Source of the DNA: Rhodanobacter thiooxydans
Lineage (GTDB): Bacteria > Pseudomonadota > Gammaproteobacteria > Xanthomonadales > Rhodanobacteraceae
Assembly (NCBI RefSeq): GCF_030291135.1
Contig: NZ_CP127409.1
Span: 1,674,001-1,738,000 of the forward strand
Direction of reading: 5' to 3'
Length of the DNA: 64,000 nucleotides
Part shown: one piece after another, positions 8,003-60,251 of the stretch
Layout of the letters: each line of letters starts with the position of its first letter
Numbering within the stretch: position 1 is the stretch's first letter
The notes under the pieces: generated by a model
Seen by the model: the letters and a program-made list of their open reading frames with translations, nothing else
What the model was told of the DNA's origin: nothing
The model's database searches: none
Translations under genes and position numbers: made by a program

Positions 8003-8126
8003 GTGATGTCTCCCCCAACAGTGATGTCGTGTCCAGTCCCCGGCAATTCGCGCAGCGAGCCCCATTCCTCATTCATTGATCTCCATCCCCCGGGCGCTAC
8101 GCGGCAACTGCCATTCGATGTCTGTT

Positions 8127-9212
8127 TCAGTTCTCTCGGTAGGTCAGTACGGTGAAGCTATTGTCGAAATAGAAGTTCGGATAGAACGGCGCCACCGCGG
8201 TATCTACCTTCCTTGCCGGATCGACGCCCCCCTCGGCGGCGACCAGGTAGACGCGGCCGCGCTGCGGATCGAGCGCCAGCGTGCGCGCCATCGGACGGGT
8301 GGTTACGGCCTGCTCCAGGCGGTAGCGGTCGGGGCTCTGCTGGTCGATCACCATCAGGTCGGCGTCCAGCCCGTTGGCGGCGTATATGCGGTGCGTGGCC
8401 GGATCGAACGCCACGCCGTCGTTGCCGCGGCCGATCGGCAGGCTGGCCACCACGGCGCCGCTTTCCGCGTTCAGCACGGCCAGCAGCGGCTGGTCGCTGC
8501 GGCAGCCGACAAAGATGCGCCGGCTCGCCGGGTCGTAGTCCAGTCCGGTGGGCTGGTGGCACGGCGCGGTCGGCCAGGTGGCGGTGACCGCGTGCGTGCG
8601 GGCGTCGATGCGCACCACCGCATCGCGATCGCGCTCGGCCACGAACAGGTTGCCGTGGCCGTCTGGCGCCGATGCCTCAATGTGATGGCTGGACATCGGC
8701 AGCGTCGCCACCGGCTTGCCGCTGCGGGCGTCCATGAAGGCGACTTTCCCGCTGTCGCCCATGGTGAATATCAACTGCCCGGTCACCGGCTCGAAACTGC
8801 CGGCATCGGCGTCGTTGCCGAAGTGGATGCGCCGCATCGTCTTCAGCGACTTGAGCTCGAACTCGGTGGTCGAGCCGTCACCGTTGACGGTGTAGCCCAG
8901 CCCCAGCGACGGCACCAGGATCGCCTTGTTTGCACCGGCGGAGTCGGCGATGGCGGCCACCACCTTGTGCGTCGCCACGTCGAACACGGTGACGCCGTCG
9001 TGGCGGCGGCCGATGAACAGGTACGAGCGCGCGGCGTCATAGCTGAGGTAGTCCCACGCCGGGGCCTTGCCCGGCAAGGTCACGGCCGATTGCAGCCGAT
9101 AGAAGCTGGCGGCGTGGCCGGATACCGGCAGCACCGCCAGGCACAGCAGCGCGGTCGCCATAGCCTGGAGTCCACGCTGTCGTGGGCGGCTGAACTGGGT
9201 GGACGAAGGCAT
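8127..9212 (-). CDS. Secreted YncE-like beta-propeller protein
   Basis: A 361-residue protein with a signal peptide (GLQAMATALLCLAVLPVSGHAAS) and YVTN-type blades such as SYLFIGRRHDGVTVFDVATHK, GNLFVAERDRDAVVRIDARTH, RIFVGCRSDQPLLAVLNAESG and RIYAANGLDADLMVIDQQ. It starts 10 nt after the stop of the upstream propeller-fusion gene and is followed by the TBDR gene 124 nt downstream, so the three are probably co-transcribed. It is likely periplasmic. A ligand-binding or accessory role to the receptor is inferred only from context. Confidence 0.83.
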   Translation of the reverse strand: MPSSTQFSRPRQRGLQAMATALLCLAVLPVSGHAASFYRLQSAVTLPGKAPAWDYLSYDAARSYLFIGRRHDGVTVFDVATHKVVAAIADSAGANKAILVPSLGLGYTVNGDGSTTEFELKSLKTMRRIHFGNDADAGSFEPVTGQLIFTMGDSGKVAFMDARSGKPVATLPMSSHHIEASAPDGHGNLFVAERDRDAVVRIDARTHAVTATWPTAPCHQPTGLDYDPASRRIFVGCRSDQPLLAVLNAESGAVVASLPIGRGNDGVAFDPATHRIYAANGLDADLMVIDQQSPDRYRLEQAVTTRPMARTLALDPQRGRVYLVAAEGGVDPARKVDTAVAPFYPNFYFDNSFTVLTYREN

Positions 9213-9222
9213 CGGCCGGCCC

Positions 9223-11058
9223 CTACTTGCCCAGCGCGAACCAGAGCACTTCGCCGCCCTTGCCGTGCTCGCCGGGCGAGGCGGCCAGGTAGAGGCGGTT
9301 CAGCTCCGGCACCACGATGCCGGACTTCGCACCGACGGCGCTGGGAATGCGCGGCCGCGTGGCATAAAGGTCCGGCGTCACCTGCTGGTACACGCCAAGG
9401 TCGCCGTCGCCGCCGGGCAGATACACGCGCCTCCTGACGCTGTCCCAGAACAGTCCGTCCGAGGTTGCCGGGGCATCGAGCGTCGCTACGGTGGCGCCCG
9501 TATCGGTGTTCAGCACGAACAGCTTGCTGGGGCTGCGGGTGCCCACGAACAGGCGGTGGTCGGCCTCGTCCAGCGCCATGCTCAGGTTGGTCTTCGCGCC
9601 GCTCAGCGGCCAGCGTGCGATCACCTTGAAGGTCTTCTTGTCCACCACGTCCACTTCGTCGTGGTCGGCGACATTCACGAACAGGCGGTTGCCGTGCTGC
9701 TCGGCCTTCACCGCCTCGGTGTGATCGGAGTCGAAGCGCAGCTTGTTGTACACATGCCCGGTGAGCGGATCGACCTCGTTGAGGAAGCAGTCCTTCATGC
9801 CCACGTCCTTGCCGCCAGTGACGATGTACAGATGGCCGGTGGAAGGATCGAGCTCGGCCGAATCCGCACCCGGCTCCAGGGCGATGTGGCTGACCACCTT
9901 GTAGGTGGTGGCGTCGAACACCTTGGTCATGCCCTTGCCGCTGTCGGTGACGATCAGGCGGTTGGCCTTGGGCAGGTAGATGATCGCGTGCGGCGTCTCG
10001 ACGCCGGTGAGGGTGCGCTCATGCCGGCCGGTGCGCAGGTTGAGCAGCTCCAGCGTGCCGTGGTCCTCCGCCGCCAGCCACAGGCGGTTGCCCTTCAGGT
10101 CATAGCCGAAGTGGTCGAAGTCGCCCGAGTAGCCGGGCTTCCAGCCGGTGCTGCGCCCGATCAGCGTGGCAGTGGGGTGGAGGTCGGCCACCTTGGCCGC
10201 CGGCACCGGCTGCATCAGCCCGGCAAGCGAGGGAATCTTCTTGCGCAGTTCGTCGCGGATCGCGAACCCTTCGCGCTTCAGCGCATCCTTGTCGTCGCCC
10301 GGCTTGTACGGGAACACGATGCCTATCGCACCGATGGTCTTGCCGCTGGCGTCGAGCAGGCGCGCCTCCACCTCGAAGCGGTGGCCGTTGACCTCCAGGT
10401 TGGGGATGCCGGTGTTGATGGCGCGCATGTCGTCGTCGTCGGCCTGCTTGCCGATGCGGCCGATGCTCGAACCCACCACCATGTTGACGCTCTTGCCCGG
10501 CGGCACGATGTGCAGCATCAGGATCAGCAGCTTCGGATGCGCGGCCATGGTCTGGTCGACCAGTTGTTGCGCATAGGTGTGGGTAGGCACGCTGGAGTCG
10601 AACGCGTAGGGCTGAGTCAGGTTGGCGACGTTGGAGATGCGGCGTCGCAGCTGATCGCGCACCACCTCGGCCTTCTTCGCCAGCGCGGCCTTGTCGTCGC
10701 CGGCGGCGTAGGGATAGACGATGCTCAGCGCGCCCACCGTGTCATCGGTGACGTCCTTCAGCGGCACCTCGACCTCGAAGTGGTCGCCCTCCTTGTTCAC
10801 CTCCAGCACCGGCTTGCCGGTGTTGACCACGCCCATGTCGTCGGAATCGGCCGGCTTGCCGATGCGGCCGATGTTGGAGGCGATGATGACGTTGACGGTC
10901 TGCTTGGGCGGCGTCACGTGCATCGCCATGATGGCGATGTCCGGGTGCGCGGCGAGCGTTTCGTCCACCAGGTGCTGGGCGTAATTCGGTGCGGTCGTCT
11001 GCGCCAGCAGCGGCGGCGCCAGCAGGGTAGTGGCCAGGAGCATTGCGTAACGAACCAT
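9223..11058 (-). CDS. Secreted protein with a tandemly duplicated N-terminal domain fused to a YncE-like beta-propeller
   Basis: A 611-residue protein from the ATG at 11058 (MVRYAMLLATTLLAPPLLAQ, a signal peptide). Residues about 24-150 and about 155-285 are two copies of one domain: YAQHLVDETLAAHPDIAIMAMHVTPP against YAQQLVDQTMAAHPKLLILMLHIVPP, and IGRIGKPADSDDMGVVNTG against IGRIGKQADDDDMRAINTG. The rest is a propeller with blades such as NRLIVTDSGKGMTKVFDATTYK and GHLYIVTGGKDVGMKDCF. The duplicated domain is not one I can name. The gene heads the run of propeller, TBDR and MFS genes and diverges from the two-component system. Confidence 0.8.
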   Translation of the reverse strand: MVRYAMLLATTLLAPPLLAQTTAPNYAQHLVDETLAAHPDIAIMAMHVTPPKQTVNVIIASNIGRIGKPADSDDMGVVNTGKPVLEVNKEGDHFEVEVPLKDVTDDTVGALSIVYPYAAGDDKAALAKKAEVVRDQLRRRISNVANLTQPYAFDSSVPTHTYAQQLVDQTMAAHPKLLILMLHIVPPGKSVNMVVGSSIGRIGKQADDDDMRAINTGIPNLEVNGHRFEVEARLLDASGKTIGAIGIVFPYKPGDDKDALKREGFAIRDELRKKIPSLAGLMQPVPAAKVADLHPTATLIGRSTGWKPGYSGDFDHFGYDLKGNRLWLAAEDHGTLELLNLRTGRHERTLTGVETPHAIIYLPKANRLIVTDSGKGMTKVFDATTYKVVSHIALEPGADSAELDPSTGHLYIVTGGKDVGMKDCFLNEVDPLTGHVYNKLRFDSDHTEAVKAEQHGNRLFVNVADHDEVDVVDKKTFKVIARWPLSGAKTNLSMALDEADHRLFVGTRSPSKLFVLNTDTGATVATLDAPATSDGLFWDSVRRRVYLPGGDGDLGVYQQVTPDLYATRPRIPSAVGAKSGIVVPELNRLYLAASPGEHGKGGEVLWFALGK

Positions 11059-50810: not shown

Positions 50811-50868
50811 GGCGTGCCCGGACCCGGGATCGAACCGGGATACCCGTGATGGTGAGGGATTTTAAGTC
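50811..50868 (-). repeat. attL: displaced 3' half of tRNA-Leu(TAA) with 15-bp core
   Basis: On the minus strand this begins with the anticodon stem-loop sequence gacttaaaatccctc (core 50854-50868), continues through a variable arm and an intact T arm (CCGGG, TTCGATC, CCCGGG) and ends TCCGGGC like a tRNA acceptor. There is no 5' half. The 15-bp core is repeated exactly at 60207-60221 inside the functional tRNA-Leu gene. It marks the left end of the integrated element. Confidence 0.85.
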
Positions 50869-51079
50869 GCAGGGGGTGGTTGTTGCCGACAGTTGAAGGC
50901 GTTTAGCTTCAATGGGTTATCTGTTGACTACCGTTGCTGATTGCTGGCGATTCTCAGCTTCCGTGTCCCGCCAGTGTCCCACGGGTTCCCGTTGAGGGTG
51001 GCGCGTCGATCGCTGCAACCTAGCGCGGCGACTTCGGCCGGAGTAGCCTCGAACGCTGGGGAAATTCAGGGGAACACGG

Positions 51080-51424
51080 ATGAAGATTCTTGCAGGCTTC
51101 GCGGTTATCGGTGCGCTCGCTGGGTGCAGCACGTACCAGGCGCACAGTAACCTCGCCACACCTTACGCAGCTACGAACGCCAGCCGCGTTCAGATCCTCT
51201 ATTCCCCGCCGCAGCGGGCCTATGAGTCGATCGGCATCGTCTCCGCCAAGCGGTACAAGCCCGGCTGGACTGATCCGACAGTGAGCGATGCCATTCCGCA
51301 ACTGCAGGCTGCAGGTGCGGAGATTGGCGCGGATGCCGTGATTGTCCGCAACGATCAACGGCTGAATGATCGGCACGTTGTCGTTGAAGGCGAAGCGATC
51401 AGGTTCACGTCCAAGGCGCAGTAG
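51080..51424 (+). CDS. Small lipoprotein, element cargo
   Basis: A 114-residue protein with a lipoprotein signal (MKILAGFAVIGALAGCSTYQ, lipobox LAGC, Cys16). The rest includes SRVQILYSPPQRAYESIGIVSAKRY and LQAAGAEIGADAVIVRND, reminiscent of small heavy-metal-binding/YbjQ-like beta-alpha proteins, but I cannot assign a family firmly. It is the only plus-strand gene of the element, beside attL, and converges on the next lipoprotein gene. Confidence 0.72.
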   Translation: MKILAGFAVIGALAGCSTYQAHSNLATPYAATNASRVQILYSPPQRAYESIGIVSAKRYKPGWTDPTVSDAIPQLQAAGAEIGADAVIVRNDQRLNDRHVVVEGEAIRFTSKAQ

Positions 51425-51435
51425 CTCCCAAGAAA

Positions 51436-51459
51436 AACGCCACCCGCAACGGTGGCGTT
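51436..51459. terminator. Shared terminator between the two convergent lipoprotein genes
   Basis: Stem aacgccacc/ggtggcgtt with a 6-nt loop and A residues on the left side (U-run for the minus transcript). Confidence 0.75.
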
Positions 51460-51469
51460 GGTGTCAGAT

Positions 51470-51784
51470 CTAATCGCCACAGAAGGTGTTCCACTTCGGA
51501 CGGAATAGCTTGTCGTCCGGCCTATCGAGATGAATGTCATATCCGTACTTGTCGGAAACGAATCTTTCGTACCCGACGTACGCACCATAGGCGTTCTTGG
51601 CGTTGACCTCGCCGCACAGATACGTGTCCCCTTGGTACACCGATTCGCGAAGGCCGCGAAGCTGCACAGTGTCCGGGTCGCGCATCATGTTGCGGAGCTT
51701 CCCAAGTGGTTCGCTGTACTTCGATTCGATCGAGCACCCCGCGAGTATCAACACCGCGAGTGCAGCAGCAACAATCCTTTTCAT
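51470..51784 (-). CDS. Small lipoprotein, element cargo
   Basis: A 104-residue protein (MKRIVAAALAVLILAGCSIE, lipobox LAGC). It continues KLRNMMRDPDTVQLRGLRES, DTYLCGEVNAKNAYGAYVGYERFVSD and ends KWNTFCGD. The MRDPDTVQLR..CGEVNAKNxYGAYVGY pattern recurs in small phage/bacterial lipoproteins of unknown role. It is on the same strand as the satellite operon but 147 nt past its last gene. Confidence 0.75.
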   Translation of the reverse strand: MKRIVAAALAVLILAGCSIESKYSEPLGKLRNMMRDPDTVQLRGLRESVYQGDTYLCGEVNAKNAYGAYVGYERFVSDKYGYDIHLDRPDDKLFRPKWNTFCGD

Positions 51785-51931
51785 CGTATCCCCCTGTTTT
51801 GCGCCGTTGCAGCGCCAAGGGATGATAACAAGCGTCCCGGTCATCGGTTCCACCTGACGCTGGTCGGCTCGGGCCAGACTCGCGGGACGGGGATAGCTTG
51901 GCGCGGCGTGCTGGTGCGTAGGTGCGTGCCT

Positions 51932-52309
51932 TCAGTCGAAGTCGCCGCGTTCTGGCTTCGGTGGTGCGGCGCTGACGCGGCTGGCGTCTGCCGGGGATAA
52001 GCCCAGCTTCGAGAGCATCATTTCCATGCGTGCCAGGAGCGCTGGCGGCATCTTGGCGGCGCCTTCCGTCTTGAACAGCACATATAGCTCGGCGGCCACT
52101 TCCAGATATACCCGGTCGCGCTTCTGCAGAGTGCCGGCGGGCGCGGTGCTGGCGATGTAGTCCCACGCTTTCTTGAACGTCCAGTTTCCGCCACGTTTCG
52201 GCGCTGAACCCAGCGGTTCCGATAGCGGATCTGACCTGCGGCGGCTCGGATCATGCTGGAAGCTGCCGCGTAGCTCTAGGATGTTCGATGCAGTTCGCGG
52301 GCGGGCCAT
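51932..52309 (-). CDS. Phage terminase small subunit-like protein
   Basis: A 125-residue protein, MARPRTASNILELRGSFQHDPSRRRSDP..., matching the start of P27/TerS-type small terminases (LELRG.F..NP.R motif), followed by a helical region (WDYIASTAPAGTLQKRDRVYLEVAAELYVLF). TerS would recognise a pac/cos site on element DNA. No large terminase gene accompanies it, so packaging would need a helper's TerL. It is the last gene of the capsid segment. Confidence 0.68.
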   Translation of the reverse strand: MARPRTASNILELRGSFQHDPSRRRSDPLSEPLGSAPKRGGNWTFKKAWDYIASTAPAGTLQKRDRVYLEVAAELYVLFKTEGAAKMPPALLARMEMMLSKLGLSPADASRVSAAPPKPERGDFD

Positions 52310-52312
52310 CGG

Positions 52313-52483
52313 TCAATTCCTGTTTTGCGGACGCGTGAATCTGGCTGCCGACGCGGTCCCCGGTGCGATGATCGGGAGGTTTGACTCCGCCCTCCGGGGG
52401 CCTGTAGCTGCAGCGCGTGCATCGGGTCGCGTTGGGTAGGTTGCCCCCGCACCGTTCGCGGCGGCCGGGGGCTTGGGTTGCAT
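52313..52483 (-). CDS. Possible 56-residue ORF coupled to the small-terminase gene
   Basis: An ATG frame (MQPKPPAAANGAGATYPTRP ...) ends 3 nt before the small-terminase ATG, so its stop lies in that gene's ribosome-binding site (aggaatt), as in translational coupling. The product is Ala/Pro/Arg-rich with no recognised domain. It may be chance; the capsid-to-terminase gap (52310-52607) is otherwise empty. Confidence 0.25.
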   Translation of the reverse strand: MQPKPPAAANGAGATYPTRPDARAAATGPRRAESNLPIIAPGTASAARFTRPQNRN

Positions 52484-52607
52484 GTCTCGGGAGAACTAGG
52501 CCCTACCATGCTGCTGGTGTTGTTTGTCATCGCACCACCGCCAGCTGTGCGCGTCGGGCCGGCCAATGAGGATCTGCGCACCGGACACCGCTTACTGCGC
52601 TTGTCTG

Positions 52608-53759
52608 TTACGTGGTCGGCACCAGCGCCACCTTGAGCACCGCACCGGGACTGAAGACGGCCAGACCGGCGCGCAACTCGGCGAGCGTGGTGACCATGTT
52701 CGTGGTGAAGTTCGTACCGTCCTCACGGCTGCTCATCACGCTTACTTCTTGACGATCCAGCAGCGCCAGCTGCGAGCCGTCGAGTACCAGCGCAGTGCCA
52801 GCAGCAAGCGACGGGCTGGTGACTACGGGGACGGACCAGAGCGACGGGGGCGCCGGGTTGCGTGCGCTGCCCAGGACGTACTGACCGTTCGTGGTGGAAC
52901 GTTCGCGCTGAATCGAACCCCAGTCGCTCGGCGACAGCACAATCACGGATGCCTGCCAGCCATTGCTGTCCAGTTCGTCCAGTGCTTCGCCGATCATGTC
53001 CGCGGGTGCGGTGGCGCTGGTGGTGGCCGCGGTCGCGTAGGCAAGCAAGCCCTTGATGCGATCGGTCGCATTGCCGGCGCCATTGATCAGCAGGTTTTCC
53101 AGCTTCGCCATGCAGCCATAGCCCAGCAGGTTATCCAGCTGATAGGCGAGCTGCGGCGCGTCTTCAGTCACCTGCAAACTGGAGCGTACGAACGCGGCGA
53201 CAGTCGCAATCTGGCTGGTGACGATCGTCGTGGCAACGGTCTGCTCGGCTTTCGTGTCGCCTTCCTTCGATTGCACCGCGGCCGCATTGGTGAAGCCGGT
53301 CAGCTGCATGTACTCGAACGCGGCTGCACTCACCGGCAGCACGCGCAACGCGTCGATCAGCGACAAGCGCCGCTGCGGCTGATTCCAGAGATTGCTGACG
53401 TCGCGGTTCGGCTGGACGTTGTAATCCTGATTGCCCGACGACTGACCGACGCCGGCGTTGTTGATGGCTTTGGTCAGCGTCTTGATGCCGCCGGTCTTGA
53501 GCGTCACGCGGCCAGTGCCGGGCGCACCGTCGCGCATGGCCTGCATCTGCGCCGACTTGATGAACTCACCGGACACGGACGGTGCCGCGTCGATGTTGCC
53601 GGTGTACGCGCCGCGGCCCTTCAAGGCTGCGACTTCCTGCTCGATACCGGCCAGGCGCTCCGCGGCTTCGCTCTGCTGCGCGCTCAGGGCGTGCTGCGCT
53701 TTGGTGAATTTCTCGCTGTGCTCATTGATCGCGGCGAGGATGACGTCTTGGTTTTCCAT
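52608..53759 (-). CDS. HK97-family phage major capsid protein
   Basis: A 383-residue protein. Residues 1-70 are a coiled-coil delta/scaffold-like domain (EHSEKFTKAQHALSAQQSEAAERLAGIEQEVAALK), which prohead protease would remove. The rest shows the HK97 fold pattern: QRRLSLIDALRVLPVSAAAFEYMQL, VAAFVRSSLQVTEDAPQLAYQLDNLLGYGCMAKLENLLINGAG, ASVIVLSPSDWGSIQRERSTTNGQYVLG and LWSVPVVTSPSLAAGTALVLDGSQ. It starts 14 nt after the protease gene, the usual order. It gives the element its own shell protein. Confidence 0.93.
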   Translation of the reverse strand: MENQDVILAAINEHSEKFTKAQHALSAQQSEAAERLAGIEQEVAALKGRGAYTGNIDAAPSVSGEFIKSAQMQAMRDGAPGTGRVTLKTGGIKTLTKAINNAGVGQSSGNQDYNVQPNRDVSNLWNQPQRRLSLIDALRVLPVSAAAFEYMQLTGFTNAAAVQSKEGDTKAEQTVATTIVTSQIATVAAFVRSSLQVTEDAPQLAYQLDNLLGYGCMAKLENLLINGAGNATDRIKGLLAYATAATTSATAPADMIGEALDELDSNGWQASVIVLSPSDWGSIQRERSTTNGQYVLGSARNPAPPSLWSVPVVTSPSLAAGTALVLDGSQLALLDRQEVSVMSSREDGTNFTTNMVTTLAELRAGLAVFSPGAVLKVALVPTT

Positions 53760-53773
53760 CGGGGTATTCCTTT

Positions 53774-54445
53774 TCAGAGTCGGGATGCGCTGCGCAGCAG
53801 AATTGCCACGGCGCGTTTTGTGACGTCGGCCGAAACACCCTCGCGGCGTTCAATCTCTATCGCGCCATCGCGGCGCAATAGTGGCCATGCTGCAGCGGTG
53901 GCCTGTTTGGCTTGCCGCTGTGTCAGGTCGAGCGCGCGACGGATCGCACGTTCAAAATCGGTGGGGCTCTGCATATCGGCGAACGCCTTGATGCCGCTTA
54001 GGCGCGCGTCGGGATTCGCAGGGACGGCCACCAGCGAAACTTCGATCAGGTCCAGCGCGTCGATCACTTGCACGCCGCCCACGTTGCGTATGTCCGCGGC
54101 GTTGGCTGTGAATTGCACAGACATCGAGAGACCTCCGATGCGTGCGAGTGCATACGCGCGCTGGCCGGCCTCGGTATCGACGGCAATCCTTCCGGTAACG
54201 CTCAAGCCCACCGCGTCGACCTCGGCCGCCGTGATGGCGCCAAGGGGCTGCAACGGATCATGGTCGGCCAGCAGTGGCACGTTCATGCCGCGCGCGGCCC
54301 AGGTGGCCAACGTGTCGTCGAAAGCGTGCGGGGAGATTACGTCGCCTTGTCGATCGGGCTGCGGCCCGAATGTTGCCGCGTAGCCGGTGAAAGTGCCGGC
54401 AGCAGCAGAGGCGTCGAGTAACTTGGCGTGAAGTAGTTTCAGCAT
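53774..54445 (-). CDS. HK97-family prohead protease (S78)
   Basis: A 223-residue protease with GTFTGYAATFGPQPDRQGDVISPHAF near the N-terminus. The likely catalytic set is His62 (LADHD), Ser107 (GGLSMS) and Glu135 (IEVSLVAVPANPDA), the standard herpes-assemblin-like arrangement. It would cleave the N-terminal domain of the capsid protein encoded directly downstream. Confidence 0.92.
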   Translation of the reverse strand: MLKLLHAKLLDASAAAGTFTGYAATFGPQPDRQGDVISPHAFDDTLATWAARGMNVPLLADHDPLQPLGAITAAEVDAVGLSVTGRIAVDTEAGQRAYALARIGGLSMSVQFTANAADIRNVGGVQVIDALDLIEVSLVAVPANPDARLSGIKAFADMQSPTDFERAIRRALDLTQRQAKQATAAAWPLLRRDGAIEIERREGVSADVTKRAVAILLRSASRL

Positions 54446-54554
54446 GGGGGCCGTCTCGGTCCTGTCGTTAGGGACAGCGTGCCGAGTCGTCTCCGGGCTG
54501 CCTATGTCGCTGCGTGCGCTTCGATGCGTTTGCGTGCGGTTCCGTGCAACGACT

Positions 54555-54842
54555 TCACACGTCGGCGCGCTGGCGCTCGATGAACTCGGCCAGGTCGGCC
54601 AGTCGATAGGTCACGCGGCCGGCGACTTTGTAGAACGCCAGCGGGCAGGAACCGGCGCGCAAGTTGCGCAACGTGCCGGCCGCCAGCCCCACCAATTCAG
54701 CGGCGGCGGGTTCACTCACTCGGCCATCGCCAGTGATGGGGATGGTCGATGCGCGCGCTGTAGCTTCCAGAGTTGCAAGGCAATCGGCGATGCGCTCCGC
54801 TAAATCAGGGACGGCAATGCGCTGGTTATTTGCGGCTCTCAT
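54555..54842 (-). CDS. Small helix-turn-helix DNA-binding protein
   Basis: A 95-residue protein. Residues about 45-90 form a MerR/AlpA-like winged HTH (VSEPAAAELVGLAAGTLRNLRAGSCPLAFYKVAGRVTYRLADLAEFIERQR). The GRVTYRLADLAEFI wing is typical of phage excisionase/AlpA-type regulators. Its ATG overlaps the primase stop (ATGA), and the gene lies just ahead of the capsid segment, so it could control capsid expression or bind the nearby octamer repeats. Confidence 0.75.
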   Translation of the reverse strand: MRAANNQRIAVPDLAERIADCLATLEATARASTIPITGDGRVSEPAAAELVGLAAGTLRNLRAGSCPLAFYKVAGRVTYRLADLAEFIERQRADV

Positions 54843-56857
54843 TCCCCTTGTACCCCTGCACCCGGAACTGGCGCACTGGCGCGCGTTGCCGGCGCTAATT
54901 CGCTGGTTTGCGCTAGTTCTACAACTGGCGCTAACTGGCGCACTGGCGCAACGCTAAATTTCTCCCGTCGATGGCGTGAGTCGTTTAGATATTCCTCGAC
55001 CACAATCCGACCGCTGCGCTGCAGGTCGGTAATTGCCGCCCAGAAGTCCTCGCGCCCACGCGCGCCGCGCAGTGATGCCGGCAGGTCGGGCAGGTTTTCC
55101 AGTACCCGTTGCGTCGTCGCCGGGCCGCTTCGCGCCGCGGGGACGTTCACGCCATCGGCCACTGCGGCCACGATCGCCGCCAGCACCGCGTCGGCATCCG
55201 ATCCGGCCGCGCCGTCGATGTACTCCGCGCGATCGGGGATCAGCACGCCGGAAGGTGTCCACGCGAGCCGGATCGGCGCGGCCTTTGCACCTAGATTGAG
55301 CTTTTCCTGCACCAGCTCTTTGCCGATGCGCGTGTCGACCAGCGCCAGCCGTGAGCGCGCCGAGTTGTGCCAAGCGCTCGAACCGCTGTAACTATTGCCC
55401 TGTGAGCCGAACCGCGCCGCGGCCTTGTCGATGTGAGCCAGCAGCATCACGCCGGCATCGTTTGCGCGCCCCAGTCCGGCCAGCTCACGAATGAAGGTCC
55501 GCACTTGCCGCCGATCATTCTCGGGGCCGTCGTAGGCATCCGATGCATTGTCCAGGATGATGAGGCCGGCACCGCCCACCGCGGCGCGCAGTTCGCCAAG
55601 CGTCGCCGTCGGCACCAGCGAGCGCACGCCGAACGCGGCATGTTCCGTCATCAGCGCGGACAGCCCAGCGCTACCGTCCAGAATCGTCAGCCCGGCCAGC
55701 ACCGCCGCGGCGTCCAACTGGTAGCCCTCGATAATTTTGCGCAGTCGATACCGCACGATCTCCGCGGCATCCTCCAGCGACACGAACAGCACCGGGCGAT
55801 GCTGCACCGTGAGCCCGGCCCAAGGTTGACCGGCCGCAACGTGCGCACCGATGGCCAGCGCAAGGATGCTTTTACCGCTGCCGCCGTGCGAACCGAACAG
55901 GGTCAGATGGCCGGCAGGGATCAGCGGGTTAACGATGAATTGCGGCGGCGCTACGGTCGCGCCCATGACGTCGGCAATCTGCACCGCTTGCAACGTCGGC
56001 CCGGTGGGTGCATTGATTGGCAGCGGCTGGTGGCCGAACAGCTCAGACGCGCGGCGCATGGCTGCCGGATTTTGCCAGCCGTTGCGGGCTGCAGCTGCAA
56101 AAATTGCGGCCGGGCCGGTGGAGTCGTGGCCGATCGTCTCGAACGTATCCGGGTCGGTGTCGGCGTTGTGCTTGTCGCTTGTCGCACTCCATGAGACCCA
56201 CAATTCCCGCCCAGCTTCGCCAAGCGATCGCAGCGCAGCCCCAGCGGCAATCCATTGGTCCCGGCTGTCCGCGTCCAGCACCGTGAGCGCGTCGGCCAGG
56301 TCGGCGAGTAGCTCGGGCGTCGGCTCGATCGTGGTCGACGTTGCGGGGCGATCAGCGACCGGCGCCAGCGCAGCAGCAATAAGCCAAGCGGGCGCCGGTG
56401 CGATCGGGGACAAATCAGCCCACTGATACGCGCAGCCGTCGACCACGGTCGGCGGTGCGACGACGTAGCCACCAGCGCCGCGGACGTCCAGCGCTTTGCC
56501 TACCTTGTCGGCGCTGTTGCGGATCGGTTCGGACGTCGAAAAATAATAGTGAAACCCACCGGATGCGGTGCGCGCGGTCAGCGTCTGCGGCAGCGGGCCA
56601 TGCTCGGCGATCAGTGCGGCGAGTGATTCCGCGCCCGGCTTGCCGTTGGTGTCGACGTCCAGGACGATCACCGGCGCACCGGTGGCAATGCCAATCCCCG
56701 CGGCCGGTGTTTCTGTCCACCACGCGGCGACCGTCGCGGCGTCATTGGTTGCGGCGTTCTGCCAGCCCGGCAACATCGGCAGCTTGCTACCGGGTCGCAA
56801 GGGATGGACGCGCCACCCAGCCGCGGCCAGCTGCGCGGCGTATTCAAGATTGTTCAT
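54839..56857 (-). CDS. Bifunctional primase-polymerase/RepA-like helicase
   Basis: A 672-residue replication protein. The N-terminal Prim-Pol domain is residues about 5-165 (WRVHPLRPGSKLPML, catalytic Asp67/Asp69 in VIVLDVDT, FHYYFSTS, DVRGAGGYVVAPPT). A PriCT-type helical linker follows (ADALTVLDADSRDQWIAAGAALRSLG). Then comes a RecA/RepA-type ATPase with Walker A FGSHGGSGKS (Lys329) and Walker B LIILDNASDAYD. Such proteins initiate satellite and plasmid replication. The 3' end of the gene carries five ACTGGCGC repeats, so an origin may lie inside it. Confidence 0.9.
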   Translation of the reverse strand: MNNLEYAAQLAAAGWRVHPLRPGSKLPMLPGWQNAATNDAATVAAWWTETPAAGIGIATGAPVIVLDVDTNGKPGAESLAALIAEHGPLPQTLTARTASGGFHYYFSTSEPIRNSADKVGKALDVRGAGGYVVAPPTVVDGCAYQWADLSPIAPAPAWLIAAALAPVADRPATSTTIEPTPELLADLADALTVLDADSRDQWIAAGAALRSLGEAGRELWVSWSATSDKHNADTDPDTFETIGHDSTGPAAIFAAAARNGWQNPAAMRRASELFGHQPLPINAPTGPTLQAVQIADVMGATVAPPQFIVNPLIPAGHLTLFGSHGGSGKSILALAIGAHVAAGQPWAGLTVQHRPVLFVSLEDAAEIVRYRLRKIIEGYQLDAAAVLAGLTILDGSAGLSALMTEHAAFGVRSLVPTATLGELRAAVGGAGLIILDNASDAYDGPENDRRQVRTFIRELAGLGRANDAGVMLLAHIDKAAARFGSQGNSYSGSSAWHNSARSRLALVDTRIGKELVQEKLNLGAKAAPIRLAWTPSGVLIPDRAEYIDGAAGSDADAVLAAIVAAVADGVNVPAARSGPATTQRVLENLPDLPASLRGARGREDFWAAITDLQRSGRIVVEEYLNDSRHRREKFSVAPVRQLAPVVELAQTSELAPATRASAPVPGAGVQGE
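54867..54949. repeat. Cluster of five ACTGGCGC octamers (candidate iterons/origin)
   Basis: Perfect copies start at 54867, 54875, 54924, 54934 and 54942, all in the same orientation. Two pairs are head-to-tail with no spacer. The cluster lies in the last 35 codons of the primase gene, in a locally less GC-rich stretch, next to the small HTH gene. Iterated octamers beside a Rep-type gene are typical of initiator binding sites. Confidence 0.55.
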
Positions 56858-57272
56858 CGGGGGTTTCCTCGGTGTCGTGCTGGCGCTCGATCACTTCAAG
56901 CGCGGCAATGGATCGGCAGAGAGCGGTGGACAGACGACGCGCGCCGGACAACGTGGCCAGGTCAGGGACGCATGAGCGCCAGCCCGACGTGATCGCGGCC
57001 ATAGCCCTGCCGTGCCCGGTCACTTCCGCAGCGATGGTTGCCGCGGTCACTGGCGCGGCCTCGACTTCCTCGGGGAGGGTCAAGACCTCCAGCGCGCGCA
57101 GCAGTCCGTCGACTCGCTCGATCAGCCGATAGGTTTCGTCCAGTGACGGGCGTCTCGTTGTTAACGTCGAAGTGGCCTTCGTCAATCCGGCGATTGCGTA
57201 CACGGCACGCTTTGCCGCGTGGAATGCTGGCGATTGCCGGGGCCACGTTTCGGGATCGGGCCGGCGGCTCAC
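56844..57272 (-). CDS. Hypothetical protein, satellite operon
   Basis: A 142-residue helical protein beginning MSRRPDPETWPRQSPAFHAAKRAVYAI, with a central helix pair (LIERVDGLLRALEVLTLPEEVEAAPVTAATIAAEVTG) and an acidic C-terminus. No recognised domain. It overlaps the primase start by 14 nt and the preceding gene by 4 nt, so it is translated as part of the replication operon. Confidence 0.7.
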   Translation of the reverse strand: MSRRPDPETWPRQSPAFHAAKRAVYAIAGLTKATSTLTTRRPSLDETYRLIERVDGLLRALEVLTLPEEVEAAPVTAATIAAEVTGHGRAMAAITSGWRSCVPDLATLSGARRLSTALCRSIAALEVIERQHDTEETPDEQS

Positions 57273-57907
57273 GGCTTCACCGTCCGGGCGATAGATGCGC
57301 GCGCCGCTGCTACCTTTTCCGGCGAGTCCAGCGGCGCGATACAGCGCATCGGATACAGGCGAACCAGCGACGCCACCGCGCGCGCAAACTCACGCATGGC
57401 TGCGCTCGGGTTTTTCACCCAGTCGAACGTGGATAACGTGGGCTGCATCCGCTCGGCGCGCAGGTCGGCCAGCTCGGCGCGCACCTCGGCCAGTTCCGCC
57501 AGCAGCTCGTCGGCGTCCGGTCGGCCTTCTGCGTCAGCTTCCACGTCGTCGGCAAGTTCCCCCAGCACAGAGAGCACCGTCAACCTGTTGCCCCGCATGG
57601 ATGCGTACCAGGCCATGCTGCGGGCGATCAGTTGCGCGGTGGTCTGGCCGCCATAGCCCGGCGTGAGCCACAGTCGAAGCAGGTTCAAGGATTCACGATC
57701 AGCGGCAATGCGCGTCAGGCCCATGATCAAATAGACGGCTATCCATACATCTGCAGCATCGGGCGCGTCCGGTGCATGGCAGTCGACAATAATCGTCCAG
57801 CCTTGCACCTCGGCGTAGTGGTTTCGGTAGACGCCACCGTCGGAATCCATGAGCGGCGCGCAGACGTCCAGCGCTTCCGTTATGGCTTGGAAATTGCGAG
57901 TGATCAT
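57269..57907 (-). CDS. Hypothetical protein, satellite operon
   Basis: A 212-residue protein. The N-terminal half is alpha/beta (YAEVQGWTIIVDCHAPDA, DVWIAVYLIMGLTRIAADRESLNLLRLWL). A coiled-coil region at about residues 130-155 (DELLAELAEVRAELADLRAERM) precedes a helical tail. Function unknown. It overlaps its neighbours by 4 nt on both sides. Confidence 0.7.
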   Translation of the reverse strand: MITRNFQAITEALDVCAPLMDSDGGVYRNHYAEVQGWTIIVDCHAPDAPDAADVWIAVYLIMGLTRIAADRESLNLLRLWLTPGYGGQTTAQLIARSMAWYASMRGNRLTVLSVLGELADDVEADAEGRPDADELLAELAEVRAELADLRAERMQPTLSTFDWVKNPSAAMREFARAVASLVRLYPMRCIAPLDSPEKVAAARASIARTVKP

Positions 57908-58128
57908 GGGCCGACCTCCACAATCATCGCGTTACCCACGATCGCCCACGCGCGCCGGTACATCCAGTCGCGCAGGGCAGGCGGTAGCGGCTGGCCGGAA
58001 GCGAGCCACGCGTCACAATGGCGCAATGCGCGCGCGTCGGCGCCAGGTTCGCCACGTTCGGCGGCTTCGATCAGGCCGGGAGTAACCACGGCATCGGGCG
58101 GGGCGAGGTCGAACGACTGCGCGTTCAT
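57904..58128 (-). CDS. Hypothetical protein, satellite operon
   Basis: A 74-residue protein (MNAQSFDLAPPDAVVTPGLI ... ALRHCDAWLASGQPLPPALRDWMYRRAWAIVG). No recognised domain. The start at 58128 overlaps the stop of the AlpA-like gene, and its own stop overlaps the next start, both as ATGA junctions, which supports it being real. Confidence 0.65.
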   Translation of the reverse strand: MNAQSFDLAPPDAVVTPGLIEAAERGEPGADARALRHCDAWLASGQPLPPALRDWMYRRAWAIVGNAMIVEVGP

Positions 58129-58316
58129 GCCGCGACCTGCTGCGCGTCGACCCATGCGCTGAAGGCGTCGACGTCGATATACACGCGGCGGCCGATGCGC
58201 ACCACAGCGGACTGCAGGCCGTTGGTTGCGGCGTTGAAGATCCACCAGCGCACTTGCGCCTCGGTGAAGGGTGATTCTGCGGCGAACTGGGTCACCGACT
58301 TTAGGTTGCGATTCAT
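58125..58316 (-). CDS. AlpA/excisionase-like helix-turn-helix protein
   Basis: A 63-residue protein from the ATG at 58316 (MNRNLKSVTQFAAESPFTEAQVRWWIFNAATNG). That start has gggag 6 nt upstream; the alternative ATG at 58322 has no spacing to it. The HTH is followed by the wing VVRIGRRVYIDVDAFSAWVDAQ. Proteins of this kind act as excisionase or as the transcription switch of P4- and PICI-type islands. It heads the overlapping replication operon. Confidence 0.78.
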   Translation of the reverse strand: MNRNLKSVTQFAAESPFTEAQVRWWIFNAATNGLQSAVVRIGRRVYIDVDAFSAWVDAQQVAA

Positions 58317-58409
58317 TACCATCTCCCGTTGTTGACCATTGCTGGTCGGTAGGGAGATGGTCGGCGGGGCTGTGTTGTCAGCGCGCCCGGCTATGACAAC
58401 TTTCTGAAG

Positions 58410-59003
58410 CTACTGCGCGGGCTTGCTGATCTTCTTGCGCACGGTGTCGACCTTTTCGTCGATCAGAGGCGCTATCAGTTGAGCGATGGCGCGCGCGCTT
58501 TTGCCCGCGTGCTGGGGCTGCGCCCACTTTTCCTCGGCCAGACGTTGCCACTCGTTCTGGTTGTCCACTGACACACGCTTTCGATCGTCATTGGCGCGTT
58601 TTAGGGGCTTGCGCACGCGTGCGCCGGTGTCGATGACGGCGCGCGCATCGTCAAAGTGAACCGCGTGTTTCATGTGCGCATGGAAGGTGTCTAAGTGGCG
58701 GGCAGCTTCGACCCAGTCCGGCGAGGCCTTGAGTATTTCCGCACTCAGGAAAGCCCACGTGTCGCGCAGATCGTCGCGCAGATCGCTGGCGGGCTCGCGC
58801 TCGATAATACCGGGGGCGATTTCGCGCAACTGGTAGTAGGCCCATTTAATCCGCAGCGCAGGGAAGTGTGCCGGGTCGCGCTTGGCCGCTTCGATCTGAT
58901 CGAAGATATCGCGCTTCGCATCGTTGTCCGGCTGGTCGGCAAGCCATTGGGCGAGTCTGGCGACGACGATGCCCGAGAATCTGGCTTTCAATGCGAAGGT
59001 CAT
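58410..59003 (-). CDS. Hypothetical protein coupled to the integrase
   Basis: A 197-residue protein, MTFALKARFSGIVVARLAQWLADQPDNDAKRDIFDQIEAAKRDPAHFPALRIKWAYYQL and onward, mostly helical with a basic C-terminal part (RVRKPLKRANDDRKRVSVDNQNEW). No recognised domain. Its ATG overlaps the integrase stop by 4 nt, so it is co-translated. A role in excision or partner-phage sensing is conceivable but not shown. Confidence 0.68.
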   Translation of the reverse strand: MTFALKARFSGIVVARLAQWLADQPDNDAKRDIFDQIEAAKRDPAHFPALRIKWAYYQLREIAPGIIEREPASDLRDDLRDTWAFLSAEILKASPDWVEAARHLDTFHAHMKHAVHFDDARAVIDTGARVRKPLKRANDDRKRVSVDNQNEWQRLAEEKWAQPQHAGKSARAIAQLIAPLIDEKVDTVRKKISKPAQ

Positions 59004-60076
59004 TCGTCGTCCCCCAAGAAATTGCCGGCCATGCGTTCCAGTACGCTGCGTGTGTGGTCCCCGGTCATGTGCGAGTAACGACGCGCCATAACCAGCGTTC
59101 GGTGGCCTAGCGCCTCGGCGACCTCTGCCAGGCTCGCGCCGTTCATCGTCAAATAGGAGGCGGTCGTGTGGCGCAGGTCGTGGAAGCGGAAGTCCACCAG
59201 CCCGGCAGCCGTGCGCACCTTCGCCCACGGTTTATCAAGGTTGGCCGGGGCATCATCACTGCGGCCCTTGAACACCCAGCCGGTTTGCGTCGGGTCGCTT
59301 TCCCACTGCTGGCGGATCGCGGCGACCGCAGGCCCGACCACTGGCACGCGCCGCGGCTGCCCGTTCTTCGTGTCACGGAATAGCAACGTCATGCGCTCAA
59401 GGTCGACGTCTTCCCAGCGCAGCGGAAAGATATTTCCTCGACGCGCGCCGGTGGCCAGCGCCAGCATCACGGCGCAATAGATGTTTGGGTCGTCGCTCGC
59501 GCGGCAGGCGGTCAACAGGGATTTGCGCTCCTCGTCAGACAGGAAGCGCACCACGCCCGCGCCTTCGCTGCGCTTCGTGATCGCCAACACCGGGTTAGAA
59601 GGCAACCATCCAAGCTCTTTCCACGCCCACTTACAGACGGCAGACAGGGCGGCCAGATAGCGGTTTACCGTAGCGCCCGACAGCACGCCACCACCACGCG
59701 CGGACGGCTTGGCGGACAGCTCTGCGCGGTAGCTGGCGACCGTCTGCGGCGTGAGTTTGTCCAGCGTCACAAAGCCCGCTTGATCCTTCCACCACTGCAG
59801 CATGGCGGCGACCTTCCCGCCGTCTTTGGCGTTGGGCTTCACGGGGAGATATTCCGTGGTGAATTTTTCGATCAGCTCGCCAAGCGTGCGGCGGCGGTCG
59901 GCCGTGGTCGGCACATAGGAACCGTGGCCCATATCGCTCTCGGCTTTGGCCGCCCAGGCTACCGCGTCGGTCTTGCGCTTGAACGTGCGGCTACGGGGAC
60001 GTTCACCACGCACACGCACACGAGCCTGATAGCTCGTTGTCCCATCGTGTCCCACGCGTCGAACAATAGTGGCCAT
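59000..60076 (-). CDS. int: Tyrosine recombinase/integrase of the satellite
   Basis: A 358-residue integrase. The N-terminal AP2-like arm-binding region (YQARVRVRGERPRSRTFKRKTDAVAWAAKAE) precedes a SAM-like core-binding domain (about 62-160). The catalytic domain has Arg212 (TGARRGN), Lys237, His299 and Arg302 (FHDLRHTTASYL), His325 (LGHRTLVMA) and nucleophile Tyr334 (RRYSHM). All catalytic residues are present. It lies 89 nt from the 3' end of the tRNA-Leu gene it targets. Confidence 0.95.
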   Translation of the reverse strand: MATIVRRVGHDGTTSYQARVRVRGERPRSRTFKRKTDAVAWAAKAESDMGHGSYVPTTADRRRTLGELIEKFTTEYLPVKPNAKDGGKVAAMLQWWKDQAGFVTLDKLTPQTVASYRAELSAKPSARGGGVLSGATVNRYLAALSAVCKWAWKELGWLPSNPVLAITKRSEGAGVVRFLSDEERKSLLTACRASDDPNIYCAVMLALATGARRGNIFPLRWEDVDLERMTLLFRDTKNGQPRRVPVVGPAVAAIRQQWESDPTQTGWVFKGRSDDAPANLDKPWAKVRTAAGLVDFRFHDLRHTTASYLTMNGASLAEVAEALGHRTLVMARRYSHMTGDHTRSVLERMAGNFLGDDE

Positions 60077-60164
60077 GATTGACCCTTGCTGGCTGTTGTG
60101 TCCCGTGAGTGTCCCACGGTCAGAGCAGATCAAACAAGGTAAGGCGGTAAGTTGTTGATTTTAT

Positions 60165-60251
60165 TGGTGCCCGGAGCGGGGCTCGAACCCGCATGGCCTT
60201 GCGGCCGAGGGATTTTAAGTCCCTTGCGTCTACCAGTTTCGCCATCCGGGC
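60165..60251 (-). tRNA. tRNA-Leu (anticodon TAA); hybrid gene, attR
   Basis: An 87-nt minus-strand class-II tRNA: acceptor GCCCGGA/TCCGGGC, A, encoded CCA, anticodon loop around TAA in gacttaaaatccc, variable arm CGGCCGCAAGGCC-type, T arm GCGGG/CCCGC. The sequence from the anticodon loop to the 3' end (60165 to about 60221) belongs to the integrated element. The original 3' half lies at 50811-50868. Confidence 0.94.
60207..60221. repeat. attR core (15 bp)
   Basis: The sequence gagggattttaagtc is identical to 50854-50868. It covers the anticodon loop and the 3' side of the anticodon stem of tRNA-Leu, so crossover took place within the anticodon arm. Confidence 0.85.

Follow-up and report, generated by a model that had tools for sequence, protein, structure and literature searches.

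A 64,000-nucleotide stretch of the Rhodanobacter thiooxydans genome (contig NZ_CP127409.1, positions 1,674,001 to 1,738,000; hereafter the window) contains an integrated element of approximately 9.4 kb, which is most likely a phage satellite with a gene order like that of the Gram-negative phage-inducible chromosomal islands (PICIs). Clear matches were obtained for an integrase, a Prim-Pol/AAA_25 protein, an S78 protease, an HK97 capsid protein, and a small terminase (TerS), all in open frames on the minus strand. The Pfam and PHROG matches thus agree with a preliminary description of this DNA, which had named these genes within 50854-60221. The features are as follows, numbered from the first base of the window.

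50854..60221, all main genes on the minus strand: integrated element, about 9.4 kb, inside tRNA-Leu(TAA)
60165..60251, minus: tRNA-Leu(TAA), with its 3′ half (60165-60221) supplied by the element and the attachment (att) core at 60207-60221
59000..60076, minus: tyrosine integrase (PF00589, E 9e-27; phrog_1, E 4e-68), frame open to 60133
58410..59003, minus: orf197, no family found, conserved in the related element L037 (shared cluster)
58125..58322, minus: small helix-turn-helix (HTH)-like protein, weak AlpA-like match (PF12728, E 0.14; phrog_66, E 0.29), cluster shared with L037
57904..58158, minus: small open reading frame (ORF) without assigned function, start uncertain (could be 58245), no PADLOC match
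57269..57907, minus: orf212, predicted to be all-helical (AlphaFold predicted local distance difference test score, 72)
56844..57272, minus: 142-aa protein, open frame overlapping its neighbours, no convincing family
54839..56857, minus: primase/helicase of 672 aa with Prim-Pol, PriCT_2, and AAA_25 domains (PF09250, E 4e-45; PF13481, E 5e-28; PF08707, E 5e-7)
54555..54842, minus: HTH protein of the AlpA/excisionase type (phrog_66, E 7e-5; PF12728, E 5.5e-5, below cut-off)
53774..54445, minus: prohead protease, peptidase S78 (PF04586, E 4e-21)
52608..53759, minus: HK97-fold major capsid protein, 383 aa (PF05065, E 9e-34; PDB 3qpr, E 2e-35 over residues 94-376)
52314..52395, minus: cos-like packaging site just upstream of terS (pattern unique in the window, 0.00 expected; cosC model, E 1e-7)
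51932..52309, minus: TerS, 125 aa (phrog_83, E 1e-5; alone below Pfam's cut-off)
51470..51784, minus: lipoprotein, cargo (attachment site PF08139, E 6e-5; phrog_2320, E 5e-19)
51080..51424, plus: small lipoprotein-like cargo gene, 95% identical to that of the related element L036
50814..50868, minus: original 3′ half of tRNA-Leu(TAA), now displaced, with the left 15-bp att core (50854-50868) at its end

The capsid protein possesses an N-terminal extension at the position of the HK97 delta domain. His62 and Ser109 of the protease, which we take to be the catalytic pair, were invariant in all 11 aligned proteins. The TerS assignment is firm because the protein is 40% identical (127 aa; E 1e-24) to the TerS of prophage L039, where the large terminase (TerL) and portal genes follow. 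The integrase is 96% identical to that of L037, which sits at the same tRNA. Two HTH genes, the first of them AlpA-like, had been reported previously; the match of the first (58125-58322) is weak, and the better AlpA/excisionase-type match belongs to the second (54555-54842), placed after the primase. The gene series is also interrupted by intergenic gaps of 87, 109, and 298 nt, the last between capsid and TerS, and so does not form the single overlapping operon originally proposed.

Insertion at tRNA-Leu(TAA) was precise. The 15-bp repeat GAGGGATTTTAAGTC, already recognised as the boundary of the element, was located in two copies at 50854-50868 and 60207-60221, the right copy lying around the anticodon of the tRNA, and forms the terminal part of a longer 55-nt similarity with 78% identity (copy at 50814-50868). 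This tRNA was the sole match in the window at the curated thresholds of Rfam. Comparison of the same site in related genomes, as the preliminary description had suggested, demonstrated that in all six relatives compared (L052-L056 and L059) the left flank runs directly into the right one, the two sharing exactly 15 bp, and the site is therefore empty in them; the whole 469-nt left flank is collinear in two (L052 and L053). The element-borne tRNA half shares 91-96% identity with four of these six Rhodanobacter and 78-81% with L052 and L053, and the displaced half terminates a flank matching L053 at 91% and L052 at 88%. The element-borne half thus appears closer to other Rhodanobacter lineages than to the nearest relatives, which may be taken as a sign of transfer.

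Relatives were collected via the capsid only. With capsid alignment A1 as the query, 18 loci were retrieved from genome contigs and 12 from viral contigs, and the final set of 30 elements consisted of the window element, the 18 genome loci, nine of the viral loci, and two further elements (G030 and G035). L025 was removed as the same element as L007, and L034 and L035 were removed as phage contigs with TerL and portal; L005 was dropped as a relative (E 4e-4, 34% over 64 residues in a 972-aa frame). Several of the 30 are near-copies (e.g., L014/L015, L017/L018/L029, and L032/L033), and 10 stretches reach a contig end (L006, L012, L023, L024, L026, L027, L028, L029, L030, and L033). The 29 relatives occur in Rhodanobacter, Pseudomonas, Stutzerimonas, Azomonas, and viral contigs.

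A tRNA gene lies close to one end in 19 of the 30 elements. Despite differing replication genes (Prim-Pol/AAA_25, DUF927, or DUF3987), the repeat-to-repeat lengths fall between 9.2 and 10.2 kb in the 13 elements whose two ends could be mapped: window, 9.35; L008, 9.27; L009, 9.53; L010, 9.54; L013, 9.52; L016, 9.18; L017, 9.88; L018, 10.25; L019, 9.22; L020, 9.22; L022, 9.61; L036, 9.50; and L037, 9.57 kb, where L019 and L020 rely on 11-nt repeats and L009 on 17 nt with one mismatch. L031, whose best repeat is 13 nt, was left out of this count and would give 13.4 kb. No convincing end repeat was found in five more tRNA-bearing elements (L011, L014, L015, L021, and L026), and element ends lacking a repeat were placed by eye (e.g., L007, L011, L014, L015, L021, and L032).

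In a tree of 57 capsids, the 30 element capsids and 13 phage capsids were placed on opposite sides of one branch with a support of 100/100. The other 14 capsids, of unplaced context, were left ungrouped; five of these join the element side close to its base, and a viral scan with P0075 for the context of the base-branching capsids returned L027 and two distant loci only. At E ≤ 1e-40, a class-wide capsid scan of 369 genomes was positive in four, one being that of the host; the others were a phage with TerL and portal (L057), a locus that is phage-like by gene map (L058), and a short contig with capsid and protease.

The element itself holds no recognised portal, TerL, or tail gene, as had been noted before. 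Pfam and PHROG scans of its 14 frames gave no connector match and no tail gene, and no HNH gene except for faint matches on the integrase (phrog_4578, E 0.09; phrog_99, E 0.22). TerL and portal profiles built from six phages matched none of the 30 element stretches, 10 of which reach a contig end as listed above. The positive controls matched in six of six cases for TerL and five of six for portal, with L034, L065, and L067 lying outside the profiles; the sixth portal control, L065, ends within the stored stretch, and its full record does hold a portal. A PHROG scan was also performed on the remaining ORFs of the set, of which 121 were drawn (each of 55 aa or more, with no cluster represented more than twice), 11 were removed, and one was added. 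These 111 ORFs matched 40 families, with no TerL, portal, or connector among the 25 families listed.

These results bear on the possibility that the element arose by deletion from an ordinary HK97-type prophage, with loss of the portal, TerL, and tail. The resemblance of its capsid, protease, and TerS to HK97-type phage proteins would fit such an origin, as would the primase gene of L036, which is split over two frames. Homologues carrying portal and TerL, named in the preliminary description as the mark of a deletion derivative, did not appear by profile among the 30 stretches (10 reaching a contig end), and the narrow size range, the tRNA near one end, the single capsid branch, the open frames, and the clean 15-bp att all argue against a remnant. 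Low ratios of nonsynonymous to synonymous substitution rates (dN/dS), calculated with our own Nei-Gojobori script, point in the same direction: against L024, dN/dS was 0.11 for the capsid and 0.20 for the protease; it was 0.09 for the integrase against L037, 0.18-0.22 for orf212, and 0.05 for the 51080-51424 gene against L036. We therefore regard a prophage remnant as highly improbable.

The gene-free stretch of about 300 nt between capsid and terS is partly conserved in the window element, L036, L037, and L024, and it holds the cos-like site. Prophage L039 has a comparable layout ahead of its terS. In the linear genome record of phage D3, the end and the start fall at the corresponding sequence, which is directly preceded by a putative HNH gene. 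In HK97, according to the parts of the published accounts consulted, the DNA bound by TerS lies 15-29 bp downstream of the cos cut and is contacted by the C-terminal helix of TerS, and the HNH protein gp74 stimulates cutting (PMC11331095, PMC9410871).

Three related forms of the site, cosA, cosB, and cosC, were distinguished, the window element having cosC. The cosA 20-mer was present in 46 viral contigs, in every one of which the TerS match starts 55-90 nt after the first base of the 20-mer; one of these contigs is element L026 itself, with no TerL in the following 4.5 kb. The cosA match in L006 is 19 of 20. The cosB form was seen in D3, L035, L057, and elements such as L010, L011, and L013. 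The gapped cosC pattern, derived from four elements, matched four stretches of the viral collection: one source element, L065 and L067 (phage contigs of 42.5 and 43.6 kb that encode TerL and portal), and one apparent chance match inside an ORF. Between the window and L067 sites, 63 of 84 aligned positions are identical (z 9.9, 500 shuffles), and between the window and L065 sites 58 of 87 (z 8.8). The cos window ranked best of 1,350 windows in the L067 locus and best of 580 in the L065 locus. With models built from phage sites, 15 of the 30 elements matched at E ≤ 1e-4. Across 272,114 flanking bases the best E-value was 0.3, none reaching E ≤ 0.1; a further seven elements matched between 0.001 and 0.1, and the other eight had no match below 0.1.

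All eight TerS-bearing elements have the site ahead of TerS, weakly by model in L009 and L030, and nine elements have a clear cos-like site with no TerS found. The motif DFD stands at or next to the TerS C-terminus in the window element, L036, L037, and phage L065, all of the cosC form, and NPFxDL occurs in the TerS of L009, L006, L026, and L039. These few sequences hint that TerS may be tuned to its site or partner. Two elements carry two phage-like cos sites each, L008 at 11864 and 11974 (110 nt apart) and L013 at 9376 and 13931, perhaps for two helpers; the second L008 site shares 44 identical nt with a prophage (L040) of its own genome and at most 26 nt with other phages. The cos-like site, which the preliminary description does not mention, is the strongest sign of helper dependence.

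No portal, packaging-motor, or tail gene being recognisable, the element therefore likely spreads by borrowing these parts from an HK97-type phage. We consider it probable that it is a PICI-like satellite with its own HK97 capsid, S78 protease, TerS, and cos, which depends on an HK97-type cos helper for portal, TerL, HNH, connectors, and tail. Upon helper infection, the element would excise and replicate with its own Prim-Pol protein; its capsid protein, with the N-terminal delta-like segment, and its protease would form a small shell on the portal of the helper; its TerS would mark the cos of the element for the TerL and HNH of the helper; and helper connectors and tail would complete a particle delivering one 9.4-kb genome. 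The phage HK97 has a genome of 39.7 kb in a T=7 head. Scaled from these figures, a T=3 head would take approximately 11 kb, which fits the 9.2-10.2 kb of the elements as a matter of arithmetic, not as a result. The proposal in the preliminary description, that a shell of the element's own is combined with portal, TerL, and tails of a helper, thus stands after testing as the best reading, in which the assembly of the shell itself is inferred.

The capsid protein could instead redirect or block helper heads in the manner of SaPIbov5 Ccm, with the helper capsid as the main building block. Ccm is a capsid-protein homologue that alters the size and shape of helper heads (PMC8569155), and Gram-negative PICIs often have a capsid gene that is reportedly dispensable for transfer (PMC10111431). 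Such a role is at odds with the protease gene that adjoins the capsid gene in 18 of 30 stretches. The capsid identity is also as low as 31% to the helper-type candidate L067 and 29% for the L008/L040 pair; together with the separate branch, this would make mixed lattices less likely. The preference for an own shell over Ccm-like redirection thus leans on the capsid divergence, the protease, and the separate branch, and we judge the Ccm-like role unlikely.

A broader proposal, which we hold tentatively and at somewhat less than even confidence, treats these elements as a separate lineage of Rhodanobacter and Pseudomonadaceae in which shell and protease would set the head size, TerS and one or two cos sites would set DNA choice and helper range, a tape measure or tail-assembly gene of some members would adjust the tail, and the docking parts (portal, TerL, and connectors) would be borrowed. 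Tape measure proteins were found in seven of the 30 elements, six in the BLAST cluster of L010 (L010: phrog_2854, E 6e-156) and one in L026 (TMP_3, E 5e-62), and a tail-assembly gene was found in five (cluster of L031; phrog_32, E 5e-56). Tail shortening by these tape measures was also considered. The five satellite proteins with whole frames measure 732-838 aa and the sixth, L029, 402 aa; the phage protein of L035 has 821 aa and the matched stretch in D3 has 831 codons. The satellite proteins are thus about as long as the phage ones, and tail shortening is unsupported.

Several results weigh against the borrowing of helper parts by an element with its own shell. The protease was found in 18 and TerS in eight of the 30 related stretches, and neither gene is thus a general feature of the family. 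Clear cos-like sites are limited to 15 of the 30 elements, and the cosC score involves some circularity, since both phages in that model had been retrieved with the pattern of the elements. Seven genomes combine an element with an HK97-type prophage, and among these the L008 pair is the sole long cos match; L006 and L039 share a 16-nt core, and the others share nothing beyond 14 nt, the L019/L046 pair being barely testable because the retrieved stretch ended there. More distant partners gave higher dN/dS values (capsid, 0.23; protease, 0.41; primase, 0.43) at synonymous divergences (dS) of 1.0-1.8, at which these values carry little information. The 71-kb viral record L032 encodes a TerL and portal with their own HK97-type capsid 7-9 kb past the capsid of an element whose end is unmapped; these genes probably belong to a neighbouring prophage. 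The complete host genome contains no match to PF04860, PF03354, or PF05876, and hence no resident helper was found. A TerL like that of L067 was found in none of 45 Rhodanobacter genomes, in a search that had no positive control and is hence uninformative.

The same host genome has one capsid match and one lone 262-aa PF03237 (Terminase_6N-like) frame (G000:C1:1342878-1343465), which is perhaps a prophage remnant. Portal and TerL genes displaced within the same prophage, also raised in the preliminary description, did not appear, PF04860 and PF03354 having no match anywhere in the complete host genome. Three Rhodanobacter genomes gave nothing for these two families and PF05876. In the 20 whole genomes behind 21 elements (G000, the window genome; G030; G035; and those of L006-L023), chosen for the capsid (20 of 20), the PF04860 portal was present in eight and the PF03354 TerL in six. 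All seven TerL matches and eight of the 13 portal matches adjoin a different, phage capsid, and the remaining five are weak portal matches (E 1e-10 to 2e-16) located far from any element.

Domestication by the host, as a shell or an island that is no longer mobile, would be in keeping with the fact that no resident helper was found in the host genome and the searched Rhodanobacter, and with the empty site in the other Rhodanobacter compared. Against domestication, the tRNA half points to transfer, the integrase is conserved, and the cos-like site has been kept, which leaves this explanation with very little probability. Helper-type candidates for the Rhodanobacter elements are the phage contigs L065 and L067, and a candidate pair is available in Pseudomonas turukhanskensis (G062), where element L008 and its own prophage carry the identical 44-nt cos stretch.

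The remaining genes of the element gave few family assignments. A search with orf212 returned 18 matches including itself, all organism-named matches being Rhodanobacter, and its predicted fold had no match in the PDB at E ≤ 0.001. Six ORFs of the window, cargo or without assigned function, had no match to PADLOC models. The lipoprotein at 51470-51784 faintly resembles the Cor superinfection-exclusion proteins (phrog_1119, E 0.008). The 51080-51424 gene is 88% identical to a gene in L047 (genome G035, contig C2, 586001-598000), a second island near tRNA-Ser in a Rhodanobacter genome, which encodes an integrase, a primase, a different capsid protein (phrog_617, E 6e-32), and this copy of the lipoprotein-like gene. 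In L036, the protease-capsid-terS block (8066-10579) is inverted relative to integrase and primase, and the lipoprotein pair stays in place. A second integrase-like gene (429 aa; L031:5882-7171, also in L032 and L033) lies between primase and capsid, where the others have the protease. Defence-like cargo near the element end occupies the same place in the related elements L031 (10412-12205) and L033 (9879-11660), with matches to an AriA/GajA-like ATPase and to PDC-S39.

The window element was compared with known satellites and phages. It differs from an HK97-type prophage in that no TerL, portal, or tail module was found. P4-like satellites encode Psu, Delta, and Sid, and none of these families was found among the 14 frames of the element. 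Gram-negative PICIs, as far as the available portion of the 2018 report describes them, carry int, alpA or merR, pri-ori, and sometimes terS (PMC6092414). The window element shares with them the order of integrase and primase followed by phage late genes, a size of about 10 kb, an integrase next to an att in a host gene, and, by sequence resemblance, the own TerS or helper cos present in some PICIs. For the regulator, it has two candidates with weak or below-cut-off AlpA-type matches, the better of them located after the primase. It differs in combining capsid, S78 protease, TerS, and a cos-like site, and in one capsid branch that is associated with several replication modules.

Capsid genes in such islands are not new. 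That report already covers Gram-negative islands carrying a capsid gene, in some cases together with TerS or with cos sites of the helper (PMC6092414), and a capsid gene was counted in 21 of 29 reference PICIs and described as dispensable for transfer (PMC10111431). The element is therefore not a wholly new class of satellite, an option that the preliminary description had left room for. No account of this element family was found in the literature searched, and its absence from print is claimed for that literature only. EcCICFT073 contains two cosN sites of the helper and a gene for a putative capsid protein; it differs in that it is without TerS and is reportedly packaged in full-sized heads (PMC6092414). 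PmCI172 encodes a capsid homologue as well and makes small heads of 38-39 nm (PMC6092414).

Other satellites share single features with the element. SaPIbov5 encodes a capsid homologue, Ccm, which redirects helper heads, and no protease is mentioned in the part of that report available (PMC8569155). MulchRoom and MiniFlayer also have their own capsid genes; they have portal and TerL and are described as being without replication genes, the reverse of the window element (PMC10690885). For the phage-inducible chromosomal minimalist islands (PICMIs), integration at fis, a DUF3987/DUF5906 primase, and no capsid-remodelling genes are given in the sections available (PMC10803314), unlike the tRNA-Leu site, Prim-Pol, and capsid of the window element. 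Vibrio phage-inducible chromosomal island-like elements (PLEs) are described as having chimeric tails, and putative tape-measure genes are noted in capsid-forming PICIs (cf-PICIs) (PMC12987554). Similar to PLEs with their own tape measure, 12 of the 29 relatives encode a tape measure or a tail-assembly protein; in the window element itself no tail gene was recognised, and PLE11 virions contain capsid proteins of ICP1 (PMC12987554).

A further comparison is with the cf-PICIs, of which the element had been suggested to be a very reduced relative. Like them, it has its own capsid protein, head protease, and TerS; unlike them, it has no portal, connectors, TerL, or HNH that could be found, against the definition as given in the part of the source available (PMC10690885), and it measures 9.4 kb compared with a reported cf-PICI average of 14 kb (PMC10803314). 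The label of a reduced cf-PICI is therefore not supported, and the combination of shell, protease, TerS, and cos-like site with no portal or motor places the element as PICI-like. If this placement is true, the element would represent a middle step between lone-capsid PICIs and cf-PICIs with a full head module, and a foreign shell could grow on the portal of a helper. The element falls outside the definition of cf-PICIs and sits between these and capsid-bearing PICIs such as PmCI172.

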